Positions 8,641-15,845 of a stretch of DNA of 36,821 nucleotides are shown here, piece after piece; the first letter of the stretch is position 1, and every line of letters begins with the position of its first letter. The stretch is from Woeseiaceae bacterium. GTDB lineage: Bacteria > Pseudomonadota > Gammaproteobacteria > Steroidobacterales > Woeseiaceae. The translations under genes were made by a program, and so were the position numbers. Location: contig JAQWSV010000100.1 of assembly GCA_029243005.1 (NCBI GenBank), positions 1 to 36,821 on the forward strand. The letters run 5' to 3'. The notes under the pieces were generated by a model. The model ran no database searches. It was not told the origin of the DNA and saw only the letters and a list, made by a program, of their open reading frames with translations.

Positions 8641-10113
8641 ATGGACATAAAACGCATAGGAATCAGTGGCCTCGCCGCCTACATACCGCCATATCGCGTG
8701 TGGCTGGAGGACTGGTGTCAATGGAGTGACAACCAGTGGCCGAAGATCCGTGAGGTCGTCGGCCGCAGCTTCCGCGTTCGCGGTCCAGACCAAAGTGTCT
8801 ACACGATGGCCGCAACCGCGGTCATGCGGCTGATCGATCAATACGACATTGACCCGGCGCGGGTGAAGTTCCTAGGCCTCGGAACGGAATCCAGCACCGA
8901 CAATTCAGCCGGTGCCATCATCGTCAAAGGCATGGTGGATCAGGCGTTGATTGCGCAGGGCAGGCCGCCTATCTCGCGCAGCTGCGAAGTGCCCGAATTC
9001 AAACATGCCTGTCTGGGCGGCGTGTATGGAATGAAGAGCGCGATCCGCCACCTTGCACTGGACGGTGCCGGGGGCCTGGCCATCGTCGTCTGCGCAGACA
9101 TCGCCGAATACGCGCGTGGCTCGAGTGGCGAACCGACCCAAGGCGCTGGCGCTATCGCCATGCTGCTGGAGGAAGACCCAGCTCTTGTTGAAGTGGACTT
9201 GGTGAAGTCTGGCTCTGCCTCCGATTACCGCATCATGGACTTTCGAAAACCAATGTTGCGTCTTTGTGACCAGGACCGCACAGAAAGTCACCAGGTGCGG
9301 GACTTTCCCGTTTTCAATGGCAAGTACTCGACCACCTGTTACATCGACGAGACACTGCACGCGCTTAGCGACATGTATGAGAAACGTGGACTCAGTGCGG
9401 CCGAGTATCTGCGTTCACTGAAAACCGTATTCATGCATCGGCCCTATCGGCGAATGCCGGAGACCGGCTATGCGATCGCCTACCTGTTTGCCCTAGGCAG
9501 TGGCTCGCCGGCAGACCGGGCAGAGCTCGCGTCCTATTGTTATGAGGCCGGCTTCGAGCCTGACGCATTGCTTGCCGAAATGAGCAGCAAGCGGGAGATC
9601 GCTGCACTGGCCGATCCCGAGCGACTGAATCTCGAAGCCTATCCACTGACGATGGCCGTGTTCCGAATTTTCCGCGCCGCACGACGCTACCGTCGTGAGA
9701 TTCTCGACAAACTGGCGCTGGGCAGTGACACGATGCTGGATCTCGGCAACCTGTACACAGCAGCATTGCCCGCCTGGATCGCCGCAGGCTTCGAGCAGGC
9801 GCTGGATGAAGACCGTGAGTTTACGGGCGAAGAACTACTGACCTTGGGCTATGGCAGCGGCGATGCAGCGGAAGTTATCCCCTTCACGGTTGCCCAGAAC
9901 TGGCGTGAAGCAACGGCAAAGATCGGCTTCGGGAAGGCAATGGAGTTTGCCGTCGACATCGACGAGGCGCAGTACTCGGCCCTGCATGCCGGGCGACGCG
10001 CAACCAACCTCGGCTATCTTCCACGGCAGGAGTTTGTCATCGACAAGGTCGGCCGAAACGATGAACGTCAGTTCCAGGACGTCGGTATCGAATACTATCG
10101 CTACGTCAGTTAG
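8641..10113 (+). CDS. Hydroxymethylglutaryl-CoA synthase family protein
   Basis: 490 aa thiolase-fold protein: GISGLAAYIPPYRVWLEDW, LGTESSTDNSAGAIIVKGMVDQAL, EFKHACLGGVYGMKSAIRHLA (Cys nucleophile region), MHRPYRRMPETGYA (His region). Genomic context is mevalonate pathway genes. Confidence 0.85.
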   Translation: MDIKRIGISGLAAYIPPYRVWLEDWCQWSDNQWPKIREVVGRSFRVRGPDQSVYTMAATAVMRLIDQYDIDPARVKFLGLGTESSTDNSAGAIIVKGMVDQALIAQGRPPISRSCEVPEFKHACLGGVYGMKSAIRHLALDGAGGLAIVVCADIAEYARGSSGEPTQGAGAIAMLLEEDPALVEVDLVKSGSASDYRIMDFRKPMLRLCDQDRTESHQVRDFPVFNGKYSTTCYIDETLHALSDMYEKRGLSAAEYLRSLKTVFMHRPYRRMPETGYAIAYLFALGSGSPADRAELASYCYEAGFEPDALLAEMSSKREIAALADPERLNLEAYPLTMAVFRIFRAARRYRREILDKLALGSDTMLDLGNLYTAALPAWIAAGFEQALDEDREFTGEELLTLGYGSGDAAEVIPFTVAQNWREATAKIGFGKAMEFAVDIDEAQYSALHAGRRATNLGYLPRQEFVIDKVGRNDERQFQDVGIEYYRYVS

Positions 10114-10688
10114 CCGACTTTCGTATAGGTTGTCAGCAGTTCGCCGTACGCCTCTTTCAGATGCTGCCATTCCATTTTGAACCACGGTGTAAAAGCATCA
10201 GGCGACGCTTCAAATTCACGCTCCAGTTCTTCCGCCGACAGGTATCGCATGGCTTCTATCTCCGTGTCGTTGGCTGAAGGCTCATCAGTGACCCGGCCGA
10301 GGAACACATGGCACAGCTCATGTTCGGCGCCGATATGACCGAAATTTGCCTGGTAGATAAACTTGTAAACGAACTGCAGGGCGCAGCCCGTGTGTAACTC
10401 ATCCTCGAGCCGGCGCTTAACGGCGACGTCGAGCGTTTCACCGTCGCGCGGATGGCTGCAGCAACTGTTCGACCAGTAACCCGGCCATAGGCGTTTGCCA
10501 GGCGCTCTCTTTTGCAGGAGTAGATTCCCCTGATCGTCGAATAGGAAGATCGAAAAGGCACGATGAAGTGTGCCGCCACCATTATGGCATTCGGCCTTGT
10601 TTAGTCGGCCAGTTTGCCGATCGTAGGCGTCTACCAGAATTAATTGCTCGTCTTCCGACGAGACGATTCTTGAAGTCGTGCTTGTCAC
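10110..10688 (-). CDS. idi: Isopentenyl-diphosphate delta-isomerase, type I (Nudix)
   Basis: LHRAFSIFLFDDQGNLLLQKRAPGKRLWPGYWSNSCCSHPRDGE, ELHTGCALQFVYKFIYQANFGHIGAEHELCHVFLG; GTG start. Confidence 0.93.
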   Translation of the reverse strand: MTSTTSRIVSSEDEQLILVDAYDRQTGRLNKAECHNGGGTLHRAFSIFLFDDQGNLLLQKRAPGKRLWPGYWSNSCCSHPRDGETLDVAVKRRLEDELHTGCALQFVYKFIYQANFGHIGAEHELCHVFLGRVTDEPSANDTEIEAMRYLSAEELEREFEASPDAFTPWFKMEWQHLKEAYGELLTTYTKVG

Positions 10689-10689
10689 G

Positions 10690-12912
10690 CTATTCCTTGC
10701 GGGATTCCAATCTTATGATTTCGTAGCCAGCGCCGGACAATGCCGCGGCAACCGCATCTTCATTGCTAGGACAGAGGGCAACGATGGATCCACCACCGCC
10801 AGCGCCCGTCAGTTTTGCACCGCTGGCGCCAGCATCGCGCGCGATCCGGATCATTGTCTCCAGCTGCGGCGTCGAAACTTCAATCGCGTTGAGCAATCCA
10901 TGACATACATTCATCAACGAGCCCAGCAGCTCGTAATCTTCTTCGCGCAGTGCGGTAGCGCCGGCCTCACTAATTTCATCGATCTCATCGAATATCGTTT
11001 TGTACAACACTTCGCTCTTCTCGTAACGCTCCCGAACTCCTGCCACCATGTCACGCGTACTACCGCGCACACCGCTTGACGCAATAATCAGGGGCGGCGT
11101 TTCGCCAAGGGGAAGAGGGCACGTGCGGGTACTATTGCCTTTCGAGAAAAGTACAGGCTGACCGTACACTGCCAGATTGTTGTCGACGCCGGATGGTGTC
11201 CCATGCGTCAATTCCTCACAACGGAATGCAAGTTGGTCAACACATGTATCGGTCATGCCGGTGCCGAGTAATGTGTCGAACGCCCGAATCGCGGCCACAG
11301 CAAAAGCCGCCGAGGAGCCCAGACCCATACCGATCGGAATTCGTGATCGCGCACGGATATCGAAGCCACCATCGGCGACGTCCAGCTCAGCCATGATAAG
11401 ACTGATGACAGCAGCCACACCACCAGGAATATCGCTGCCAGTTTCCCATTGATCCTGGATCTTCCAACCTGGGATTGAAAGGCTGACGCCACCATCCCGT
11501 TTCAACACCTGCACCATGACCGCATCGTGAATTGGCAGCGCCAGTACCTTGCGGTCATAAACGGCTGCGTGTTCACCCAGCAGAATGACTTTTCCGGCAG
11601 CCCGCCCTGTCGCGGCCGTTTCGTCAATGAAATCCGCCGAATCGTCAGTAAGTTCTTCAGCTTTCCACATTTTGATATCGCCGCTTTCGATCATCGTCTC
11701 GACGACGGAGTCGAATTTCGAAGCGGGGACATCGACTGCGGCAGCTACGCTGCGCGCATGCAGGCGCATGTGACCATGCTGAATCCCCGTGGAAACCAGC
11801 GCTCGCAATGCCGCAAAGTTTTGTGCAAGGCCCACCGCCGCCATCAGCTCGCCAAGTTCCTTCGCAGACTCGACACCAGTGATCTGCAAGCCCGCACGGG
11901 CACCCGGATTCGATGTCAGCGCGCCGCCGACGATACCGACTTTCAGCGGAATGGTCAGTGTCCCCTGCAAATCACCATTCTGTGAGACCGCCCAGGAGGT
12001 CAGTGAGCGATATGCACCTGACCTACATGCGAATGCATGCGCGCCCGCCTCGATTGCGCGCCAGTCGTTGCCAGTCGCCAGCGCGACGGCATCGACACCG
12101 TTCATGATGCCCTTATTGTGTGTCGCTGCCCGATAGGGGTCGGTGATCGAAACATCATTCGCCAACACGATTCCGTCACGAACAAACTCGGCGCTGTAGT
12201 CTTCCGTAGCCAACGAGGACATGTTTATGCTTGCCGTTGCCGTGACGAGTGACTTGTCAGCGAGATTGGAAAGAATTCTCAATATGACGTTGCCGCTGCA
12301 AATTTCCTCAACGCGCGATGTCAGGCCCTCGCACATCGTATTGACGATGTTTGCGCCCATTGCGTCGCGCGTATCAACCAGCAAGTGCAAGACGACAGTC
12401 CAGCCGCCATCGGGTAAGCGATACTTAAAGTATTCGACCGCGCGCGCGCCACCGCCCCGCTCAACGAGTCTAGGGTGCAAGCTGTTCGCAAGGGCGAGCA
12501 GCTCAGACTGCTCCGCGGACAAAGCCTGCACGGCTTTGTCCGGATTGTCGATGCCAACGATTTGTACCTGGCCGATCAAAATCGGGTCCATCGACGTCGC
12601 TTTGAAGCCGTCGTTGTCACGCACCAGCTTCGCGGCACTGCTCGCACCCGCGACGATCGATGGTTCTTCCACCACCATCGGCACGAGGTAGTCCTTTTCG
12701 TTGACGACGAAGTTGGGTGCAATGCCGAAAGGCAGGCCGAAAACGCCAATGACATTCTCGATCATCCGGTCTGCGACCTGCTGTGGCAGCAGCGCTTCTC
12801 CCCGAGCCAGTAACCTGGCGCTTTCCGGATCGAGGAAACTACGATCCCTAAGTGTGTCGATGCGATCCCCGATGGACAGGCGATGTAGCCATTTGATGCG
12901 CGAACTCTTCAT
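10690..12912 (-). CDS. Bifunctional fusion: class II HMG-CoA reductase (N-terminal, about 11611-12912) plus mevalonate kinase (C-terminal, about 10690-11610)
   Basis: 740 aa single ORF. HMGR: ENVIGVFGLPFGIAPNFVVNEKDYLVPMVVEEPSIVAGASSAAK, DTRDAMGANIVNTMCEG, ATHNKGIMNGVDAVALATGND, GIQHGHMRLHARS. MVK (GHMP): GRAAGKVILLGEHAAVYD, IPIGMGLGSSAAFAVAAI, THGTPSGVDNNLAVYG, GAKLTGAGGGGSIVAL. Confidence 0.93.
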   Translation of the reverse strand: MKSSRIKWLHRLSIGDRIDTLRDRSFLDPESARLLARGEALLPQQVADRMIENVIGVFGLPFGIAPNFVVNEKDYLVPMVVEEPSIVAGASSAAKLVRDNDGFKATSMDPILIGQVQIVGIDNPDKAVQALSAEQSELLALANSLHPRLVERGGGARAVEYFKYRLPDGGWTVVLHLLVDTRDAMGANIVNTMCEGLTSRVEEICSGNVILRILSNLADKSLVTATASINMSSLATEDYSAEFVRDGIVLANDVSITDPYRAATHNKGIMNGVDAVALATGNDWRAIEAGAHAFACRSGAYRSLTSWAVSQNGDLQGTLTIPLKVGIVGGALTSNPGARAGLQITGVESAKELGELMAAVGLAQNFAALRALVSTGIQHGHMRLHARSVAAAVDVPASKFDSVVETMIESGDIKMWKAEELTDDSADFIDETAATGRAAGKVILLGEHAAVYDRKVLALPIHDAVMVQVLKRDGGVSLSIPGWKIQDQWETGSDIPGGVAAVISLIMAELDVADGGFDIRARSRIPIGMGLGSSAAFAVAAIRAFDTLLGTGMTDTCVDQLAFRCEELTHGTPSGVDNNLAVYGQPVLFSKGNSTRTCPLPLGETPPLIIASSGVRGSTRDMVAGVRERYEKSEVLYKTIFDEIDEISEAGATALREEDYELLGSLMNVCHGLLNAIEVSTPQLETMIRIARDAGASGAKLTGAGGGGSIVALCPSNEDAVAAALSGAGYEIIRLESRKE

Positions 12913-13874
12913 AGGCCACTATTGTCGCTTTCAATGTCCAACGATACAAAACCGTGGGAAGACGCGACCCGATCAAATGCATCAAGCTTCCCGATATCCG
13001 TCGACAACGCTACACCGCAATCTCCGCCACCCGCCCCGCTGGGTTTGTAAACGACTCCCACCTTGTCGCCCTCTTTGCACATTTCGGCATGCCCTGCGGC
13101 AAAAATCCCTGCAGACGTTGCCTCGTCGAAGTCGCGCAATCGACTCGTGTAAGCCTGAACCGACCCCAGAATTTCGGCGGACTCTCCTGACTCCCATGCA
13201 GCCGCGGCTTCATATGCTGCGGCAACGAGCGCATCTCGGGAAGCATCCACCGATCTGACCCGATCGATCGCCGCAGGCGTGCTCGCGGATACACCGCTGA
13301 AATAGACGCGACAAACGAGTGACGCCGGCCAATTGAGGAACATCGGCACCGCCTCAGCAGATTGCCGATAGCCAAGCAGGCCGCCAAAACAACTGGCCGC
13401 GATATCGACGCCGCTGCCACCCTGCATTTCGCCATGCGCGCGACGGGCCATCTGCCAAATCTCTTCGTCCGTACGTGATTCGCTCAATACCGCTGTCAAT
13501 GCCACTGTCGCGGCGGCGCTCGAACCCAATCCCAGTTTCTGCCCACTCGCACTATCGAAAAAGCCCCGCGTATCGACGTTTACGCGGACCGGCGACGTCG
13601 GCCGAAAATCGGTTTGTAGAGCAACAGCCTCCAACAAGGTGGAACCCGGCGCCTTCGTTTCATCGAACCAGCGTATGGCGCCGCCGTCATCGACGTCGAA
13701 ATGCCATACGCCCTCCGCAAGACCAGGAGTCTGCAGCACGCTATGCGAGTCGTCATGCCGGGTAATAGATGCGCGAGCCCGGCGATTGACTGCCATGACA
13801 ATCGCAGGTGCATCATGCAGCACGGCGTATTCGCCGGACAGAATCAATTTGCCAGGCGCAGTCGCATCCGTCAT
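12909..13874 (-). CDS. Phosphomevalonate kinase (GHMP family)
   Basis: ATAPGKLILSGEYAVLHDAPAIVMAVNRRA, KLGLGSSAAATVALTAVL, HGEMQGGSGVDIAASCFGGLLGY, VYKPSGAGGGDCGVAL; 4-bp overlaps with both neighbours in the mevalonate operon. Confidence 0.87.
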   Translation of the reverse strand: MTDATAPGKLILSGEYAVLHDAPAIVMAVNRRARASITRHDDSHSVLQTPGLAEGVWHFDVDDGGAIRWFDETKAPGSTLLEAVALQTDFRPTSPVRVNVDTRGFFDSASGQKLGLGSSAAATVALTAVLSESRTDEEIWQMARRAHGEMQGGSGVDIAASCFGGLLGYRQSAEAVPMFLNWPASLVCRVYFSGVSASTPAAIDRVRSVDASRDALVAAAYEAAAAWESGESAEILGSVQAYTSRLRDFDEATSAGIFAAGHAEMCKEGDKVGVVYKPSGAGGGDCGVALSTDIGKLDAFDRVASSHGFVSLDIESDNSGL

Positions 13875-14827
13875 TTCGGAATCAACCTGGCCCCGTCGCC
13901 AACACCGGTTCGCAGCATACGTAACACGCCGGGCGTCTTTCGCAGCACCTCTTCGACAATGTCGACGGCGTCCGGCATAGAGAACACCTTGACCTGAGGT
14001 CCAGCGTCAATCGTGAAAAAGGCATGGTGACCGTTTTCCCGAAGCAACCGCACCGATTCCATGCAGGCCAGCGTCGCCTGGTTCCAGTAGACTATCGGCG
14101 GTCGACTGCTCCACATCACCGAATGCATCTTGAGACAGTTGTGCTCGGCCACTTCGCCGAGCGCAACGAAGTCTTTTACTGCGACTGCGTCACGCGCCAG
14201 TGCCAAATCGTCATCCTGACGTTCGATCCAGCTTGAATAGAACGGCGACGTTTCCGCGCTGCGAATCATCGCTGCACCGGATCCCAACGGTTTCTCTTCC
14301 TCAGCGGTGATCGCGACAACCACCTGTAGCGGCCACTCATCCGCTTCGGCAAGCTGGGTCAGGTCGATCTCGTCGTCGCCTGCGCTGAGCTCGACCACAC
14401 CCCCATACAAGGAGCGCGCCGCGGAACCAGAAGCCGCACCGGCTATTTTCGCGAGTACGAGCGCCTCATGGCCGGTCTCGGCCGCTGCATTAGCGGCCAC
14501 CGTCAGCGCAGCAAATGCGGAGGCAGAAGAGGCCAGCCCTGCACCAATCGGGAAGTTGCATTGGCTTTCTACAGTCGCGCACGGCCTGTCGACGCCGGCT
14601 ACCAAGTCCAGGCAACGTGTTACCCGACTGAGCATCGCCGGCGCCTCCTGACCATTGATAATAAGCCTGTCGCTGTCACCCGCGTCGAAGTCCACGGTCA
14701 TCTGGGTACAGAGATCGGCCAATGTGACCGACAGCGAACCGACGGCCGGAAGATTACGCGCGAGGTCACGCTTGCCCCAATACTTGACCAAGGCGATGTT
14801 GGGATGTGCCTCTGCGCTTGCTGTCAT
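13871..14827 (-). CDS. mvaD: Diphosphomevalonate decarboxylase (ORF track start 14896 is probably too early)
   Basis: MTASAEAHPNIALVKYWGKRDLARNLPAVGSLSVTL, NFPIGAGLASSASAFAALT, GAASGSAARSLYGGVVEL, FFTIDAGPQVKV, TGVGDGARLI. Confidence 0.93.
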   Translation of the reverse strand: MTASAEAHPNIALVKYWGKRDLARNLPAVGSLSVTLADLCTQMTVDFDAGDSDRLIINGQEAPAMLSRVTRCLDLVAGVDRPCATVESQCNFPIGAGLASSASAFAALTVAANAAAETGHEALVLAKIAGAASGSAARSLYGGVVELSAGDDEIDLTQLAEADEWPLQVVVAITAEEEKPLGSGAAMIRSAETSPFYSSWIERQDDDLALARDAVAVKDFVALGEVAEHNCLKMHSVMWSSRPPIVYWNQATLACMESVRLLRENGHHAFFTIDAGPQVKVFSMPDAVDIVEEVLRKTPGVLRMLRTGVGDGARLIPK

Positions 14828-14936
14828 TTTCTGTCGGGTCGTTGTCTCACCGGGAGCGAGATTATAGGACACCTGCTCAAATCTCGCCCTGACCACGGCC
14901 GGGCTCGCGTCTGATTAATCGTGTACGCTTGCGTGG

Positions 14937-15845
14937 ATGACGCGCCTAGACTTGGAAGACACGAATTTCTCCATGAGAATACCTGACTATGTCAGCCGGG
15001 TTGAGCGCTACATGGATGCCGCGCTGCCGGCCCAAAACATGGCACCCGACCGATTGCACAGTGCAATGCGCTATGCGGCATTTTCTGGCGGCAAGCGCAT
15101 CCGGCCATTACTGGTCTATGCAACGGGCGAATGCCTCGACATCGATCCGGATCGTCTGGACATGCCGGCGACCGCAATCGAATTCATCCACGCCTTTTCG
15201 TTGGTCCACGATGATTTGCCGGCAATGGACGACGATGACTTGCGGCGCGGACGACCGACTGTGCACCGTCAGTATGACGAAGCGACCGCCATCCTAGCCG
15301 CTGATGCATTGCAGCCGCTTGCCTTCGAAGTCATTGCAACTGCGGATCAACTCACAGACTCTGAGTCGCGCCAGCTCATCGCACTGATTGCGCACGCCTG
15401 TGGTTCTCTCGGCATGACGGGCGGCCAGGCAATCGATCTCGAGTCGGAAGGTCGTGCTCTGTCCGTCGGCGAACTCGCCACAATGCACGGACTGAAGACC
15501 GGCGCATTGATCAGCGCCTCCGTCATGTCAGCCTGCTGCCTGGCGCCGAATCTGCAGGGATCCAGTTTCGATGCAATGGAACGTTTTTCGCGTAAGATCG
15601 GGCTCGCGTTCCAGATTCGTGATGACATTCTCGATGTCGAGGGCGAGACAGACGTAATCGGCAAACCGTCGGGATCGGACGAAGCGCTCAATAAAGCGAC
15701 CTGGCCCGCCTTGTTCGGGATGGATAAAAGCAAGCGCCGCTGTCGGGAACTGTACGAATCAGCGAGCGATTCCCTTGACGCATTCGGCGAAGCCGCAGAT
15801 TCACTACGCTTCCTCGCAACCCTGATCGTCAACCGCGTGCAATGA
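14937..15845 (+). CDS. ispA: Farnesyl/geranyl diphosphate synthase (polyprenyl synthetase family)
   Basis: FSGGKRIRPLLVYATGECL, FSLVHDDLPAMDDDDLRRGRPTVHRQYDEA (first Asp-rich motif), GGQAIDLESEG, AFQIRDDILDVEG (second Asp-rich motif). Confidence 0.94.
   Translation: MTRLDLEDTNFSMRIPDYVSRVERYMDAALPAQNMAPDRLHSAMRYAAFSGGKRIRPLLVYATGECLDIDPDRLDMPATAIEFIHAFSLVHDDLPAMDDDDLRRGRPTVHRQYDEATAILAADALQPLAFEVIATADQLTDSESRQLIALIAHACGSLGMTGGQAIDLESEGRALSVGELATMHGLKTGALISASVMSACCLAPNLQGSSFDAMERFSRKIGLAFQIRDDILDVEGETDVIGKPSGSDEALNKATWPALFGMDKSKRRCRELYESASDSLDAFGEAADSLRFLATLIVNRVQ

Follow-up and report, generated by a model that had tools for sequence, protein, structure and literature searches.

A Fused HMG-CoA Reductase-Mevalonate Kinase Gene in the Mevalonate Operon of a Woeseiaceae Bacterium and Its Occurrence in Other Bacteria

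The hmgR-mvk Gene and Its Operon

The DNA analyzed (hereafter the window) is a stretch of 36,821 nucleotides from a Woeseiaceae bacterium. In the order of transcription, mvaD, pmk, hmgR-mvk and idi follow one another; the first two junctions are overlaps of 4 bases each and the third is a gap of 1 base, and the genes for HMG-CoA synthase and farnesyl diphosphate synthase lie on either side of this operon (Table 1). The third operon gene is a single open reading frame of 740 codons with 0 internal stops, in which Pfam recognized HMG-CoA_red at residues 17-386 (347 bits), GHMP_kinases_N at residues 501-583 and GHMP_kinases_C at residues 653-726. Against NCBIfam, the HMG-CoA reductase (HMGR) half scored 367 bits with TIGR00532 (cut-off 260) over the full length, while the mevalonate kinase (MVK) half scored 245 bits with TIGR00549 (cut-off 163) and covered positions 1-276 of the 276 in the profile. 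Neither Pfam nor NCBIfam detected a thiolase domain in the fusion, whose residues 1-421 are occupied by HMGR.

In an alignment of 42 fusions, residues E83, K267, D283 and H381 of HMGR were invariant, as were K441, S534, E566 and D577 of MVK and its glycine-rich loop G705-G708. We take the former to be catalytic from what is established for Pseudomonas mevalonii HMGR and the latter from what is established for GHMP kinases. The original prediction, in which one 740-residue frame encoded a class II HMGR and a complete GHMP mevalonate kinase, joined near residue 435 and with their catalytic motifs intact, is thus borne out: both NCBIfam cut-offs were passed in addition to the Pfam matches, the motifs that it quoted are present, the key residues are invariant and the junction was placed at about residues 422-435.

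The window HMG-CoA synthase scored 155 bits against the 360-bit cut-off of the bacterial family in NCBIfam, and the phosphomevalonate kinase 107 bits against a cut-off of 166, though its place in the operon is conserved. Promoter and terminator scans gave scores near shuffled expectation, and PADLOC returned no matches.

TABLE 1. Genes and features of the fusion locus, with two class I-like HMGR genes of other genomes (positions in the window unless another locus is named)
Feature	Position	Strand	Remark
hmgR-mvk fusion gene, 740 aa	10690..12912	-	ATG start; stop codon included
Class II HMGR part, residues 1-421	11650..12912	-	E83, K267, D283, H381 present
Inter-domain linker, residues 422-435	11608..11649	-	model confidence low at 424-427
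MVK part, residues 436-740	10693..11607	-	GKVILLGEH, GLGSSAA, GTPSGVDN, GAKLTGAGGGG
Cofactor helix H146-P-R-L-V-E-R152	12457..12477	-	similar to NADPH-type motif
Diphosphomevalonate decarboxylase (mvaD)	13871..14896	-	first operon gene
Phosphomevalonate kinase (pmk), divergent	12909..13874	-	below NCBIfam cut-off; 4-base overlap with fusion start
Type 1 isopentenyl-diphosphate isomerase (idi)	10110..10688	-	1 base after fusion
HMG-CoA synthase, divergent, 490 aa	8641..10113	+	convergent with operon
Farnesyl diphosphate synthase	14937..15845	+	divergent from operon
Class I-like HMGR, locus L117	3971-5233	-	from G029
Class I-like HMGR, locus L119	2617-3915	-	from G062

Distribution of the Fusion

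In a scan of GTDB species genomes, 41 of the 80 best loci carried a further fusion in a single frame. According to the record titles, which may mislabel metagenome-assembled genomes (MAGs), the hosts are Woeseiaceae, Rhodanobacteraceae (Dyella), other Gammaproteobacteria, Cryobacterium (Actinomycetota), Calditrichota, Acidobacteriota and Planctomycetota. The fusion is present in at least five bacterial phyla and is widespread, not rare, and the gene order mvaD-pmk-[hmgR-mvk]-idi was found in most fusion loci, across several phyla.

Within the Woeseiaceae, a joined frame was found in 99 of the 107 genomes searched; 84 of these gave one alignment over both domains, 9 gave two pieces in one open frame, and 6 were cut by contig ends, yet crossed the junction. 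The fusion is present in a Woeseiaceae genome that consists of a single contig of 4.06 Mb and is rated 100% complete (G105), and it was not found in another that is 94% complete (G010). Among the Calditrichota, 39 of 40 genomes matched, 32 of the 40 at full length, and the carriers include a genome assembled as a single 4.98-Mb contig (G492). Outside these two groups the fusion occurs patchily: it was found in 9 of the 370 genomes sampled from the class (including 2 Woeseiaceae), in 7 of 200 genomes in the family of Cryobacterium, and in 3 to 4 of 247 genomes in the phylum of an Acidobacteriota MAG (L034). Spread by plasmids was considered and set aside, as no plasmid record covered 80% of the fusion. 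A fusion-like frame of 810 codons in genome G671 was also rejected: its HMGR stands alone, the frame is long by chance, and catabolic genes lie next to it.

Given that the window belongs to a fragmented assembly of 326 contigs, a missed stop, a frameshift or a mis-assembly might have merged two separate genes. The junction is, however, open in roughly 100 independent genomes, two of them assembled as a single contig (G105 and G492), so that a frameshift or missed stop near position 11610, at which the original prediction had placed its own doubt, is excluded for practical purposes, and the chance of an artifact is negligible. The suspicion that this architecture was already in databases proved correct. 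The fusion is indeed common, and no paper describing or characterizing an HMGR-MVK fusion was found in the literature covered, which included few subscription papers and yielded MvaE and IspDF as known fusions, and the genome paper of Caldithrix abyssi does not mention mevalonate. As far as could be seen, the HMGR-MVK architecture is present in public genomes yet undescribed.

Isoprenoid Route of the Hosts

The window genome and the Woeseiaceae members that are at least 90% complete, 49 genomes in all, were searched for Dxr (TIGR00243) and IspH (TIGR00216). Dxr exceeded its cut-off in 0 of the 49 and IspH matched in 0 of the 49, while the expected control genomes were positive for both. On this gene content, which includes a window genome that is 85% complete, the fusion should be essential here, and it appears to be its owner's sole route to isoprenoids. 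The fusion had one further match in its own genome, on contig C120, which was considered as a second MVK and rejected as a galactokinase; because this genome is 85% complete, a second copy could be missing from it. A Dxr gene is found alongside the fusion in Cryobacterium (L030), the Acidobacteriota MAG L034 and a proteobacterial MAG (L016).

Cofactor Type

In NADH enzymes the sequence of the cofactor helix is Dx(V/L)xxxL, whereas NADPH enzymes carry (H/Y)xSxxxR (PMC13370337, citing Miller and Kung). Among the 42 aligned fusions, H146 was found in 41, residue 148 was mostly K, R or N, and R152 was nearly invariant. The His at position 1 and the Arg at position 7 of the NADPH-type motif are therefore present, with K, R or N in place of the Ser at position 3. 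A degradative, NADH-type HMGR was rejected, as the window helix does not fit Dx(V/L)xxxL. Its HxRxxxR pattern, in contrast to DxLxxxL in P. mevalonii HMGR, is closer to that of NADPH enzymes than to that of NADH enzymes, from which NADPH use and with it the biosynthetic direction are predicted. A caveat to the cofactor prediction is position 3, which is Ser in the described NADPH enzymes, the residues seen in the fusions being unusual.

Origin of the Fusion

The HMGR tree comprised 92 sequences, and the 49 fused ones, 2 of which were cut by contig ends, all fell on one side of a branch with support of 100/99. A tree of 66 MVKs, in which unfused sequences were thinly sampled (17 rows), likewise placed the 49 fused sequences on one side of a branch (support 92/86). 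The pairwise distances of the two halves were correlated with a Mantel r of 0.86, and 0 of 2000 permutations reached a value as high. The simplest reading is that there was probably a single fusion event, followed by vertical and horizontal spread within a conserved operon; neighboring hmgR and mvk genes would have been joined once, and the fusion would then have traveled with the operon.

Unfused neighbors were also observed. At a Myxococcaceae locus (L039, 4720-4960), a single stop codon separates hmgR from mvk, which share one reading frame, and the HMGR of this locus stands beside the fused group in the HMGR tree with support of 96/72, which is not firm. In Bacillaceae, hmgR and mvk overlap in different frames.

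Structural Models and Linkers

The AlphaFold2 model of the fusion had a mean pLDDT of 88 and a pTM of 0.60, with linker residues 424-427 below 50, which means two confident domains whose mutual arrangement the model does not settle. In Foldseek searches, the HMGR half was matched to P. mevalonii HMGR with a TM-score of 0.91 by target, and the MVK half to Methanosarcina mazei MVK with a TM-score of 0.88. The closest solved chains were stand-alone enzymes in both cases, namely 9V7Y, 6P7K and 1QAX for HMGR and 8TEB, 6MDE and 2X7I for MVK, and no PDB chain spanning both HMGR and MVK was among the matches listed. Across the fusions the linker varies from 9 to 72 residues and its composition is unconserved; the shortest linkers, of about 9-17 residues, are those of the Woeseiaceae and their neighbors.

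In seven Woeseiaceae species (G054, G056, G057, G060, G066, G081 and G090; loci L107-L113), most of the HMGR C-terminal bundle is lost. In these fusions HMGR ends soon after the helix with the catalytic H381, and MVK begins about 30 residues past that His. In the model of the shortened fusion of G060 (L004), the HMGR core and MVK are confident and the link at residues 385-399 is disordered.

Proposed Function and Alternatives

We consider it well supported, with a probability of about 0.85, that the fusion is a genuine bifunctional biosynthetic enzyme with flexibly tethered domains, which holds the sole copies of both steps and has one origin followed by spread with its operon. With NADPH as its most likely reductant, the N-terminal class II HMGR would convert HMG-CoA to mevalonate, which the C-terminal GHMP kinase would then phosphorylate at the expense of ATP. 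The two domains would be the only copies of their steps, encoded in a complete mevalonate operon of hosts that lack the MEP pathway. As the domains are expected to fold independently and to be tied by a flexible linker, the gain would most likely lie in equal dosage and proximity, that is, in tethering, and not in a physical tunnel.

The original prediction had gone further in proposing that mevalonate could be channeled. In such an arrangement the two active sites would be positioned so that mevalonate reaches MVK directly from HMGR and does not enter the bulk. Two consecutive steps in one polypeptide, conserved over phyla, would fit this proposal, as would the short linkers of the Woeseiaceae and their neighbors. 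The sequence lends it no support, however: the length and composition of the linkers vary freely, which favors a flexible tether over a rigid channel, and the low-confidence linker and pTM of the model give no fixed arrangement of the domains, which are placed independently. Monomer models cannot show an oligomer, and the oligomeric state of the fusion is presumptive. For these reasons proximity and fixed stoichiometry are the likelier benefits, and channeling is considered unlikely. It is very unlikely that MVK now functions as an integral piece of HMGR, replacing the C-terminal bundle in closure of the HMGR active site in the seven species that have lost most of this bundle, and handing mevalonate over directly.

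Separate HMGR and MVK proteins could also arise from the one gene, by internal initiation or proteolysis. An in-frame ATG at residue 415 would suit such an outcome, but Met415 is not conserved, most of the other fusions having Val or Ile at this position, and the window has no other start codon at residues 411-450; two proteins from this gene are thus highly improbable. It is possible, though we doubt it, that the fusion brought no catalytic benefit and was a neutral join that fixed stoichiometry and was kept since the operon travels as a unit. The one origin, the patchy spread and the adjacent unfused pairs of Bacillaceae and Myxococcaceae, overlapping or one stop codon apart, agree with a neutral join, whereas re-splitting was seen in none of the approximately 99 family members with a joined frame, though few changes would be needed.

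Comparison with Known Systems

Like the fusion described here, MvaE of Enterococcus faecalis (acetoacetyl-CoA thiolase/HMG-CoA reductase) is a natural bacterial fusion of a class II HMGR with a second mevalonate-pathway enzyme. MvaE combines non-consecutive steps, whereas the window fusion combines the consecutive steps of HMGR and MVK and has no thiolase domain; the contrast drawn at the outset between the two was apt. IspDF of the MEP pathway is also a bifunctional fusion for isoprenoid precursors (PMC13001223); it differs from the HMGR-MVK fusion in its pathway and in joining non-consecutive steps.

The fold and catalytic residues are shared with the stand-alone class II HMGRs of P. mevalonii (1QAX) and Streptococcus pneumoniae (5WPJ), at approximately 48 and 41% identity, respectively, from which the fusion differs by the added C-terminal MVK and some of its relatives by the loss of most of the C-terminal bundle. 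The stand-alone MVKs of M. mazei (6MDE; approximately 30% identity) and Staphylococcus aureus (2X7I) share the GHMP fold and motifs, and the fusion differs from them in that its MVK is placed behind HMGR. A match to the family model "HMG-CoA reductase, degradative" can be biosynthetic and bifunctional, as is predicted here. With the HMGR-MVK fusions, tethering could be tested against channeling in natural bifunctional enzymes of diverse phylogenetic origin, and the fusions are also ready parts for mevalonate-pathway engineering.

A class I-like second HMGR of 420-432 residues, approximately 27% identical to the fusion, was not found in the 85%-complete window genome and was observed in several other genomes of the family. 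Its gene neighbors there encode a prenyltransferase-like or dolichol-kinase-like membrane protein.
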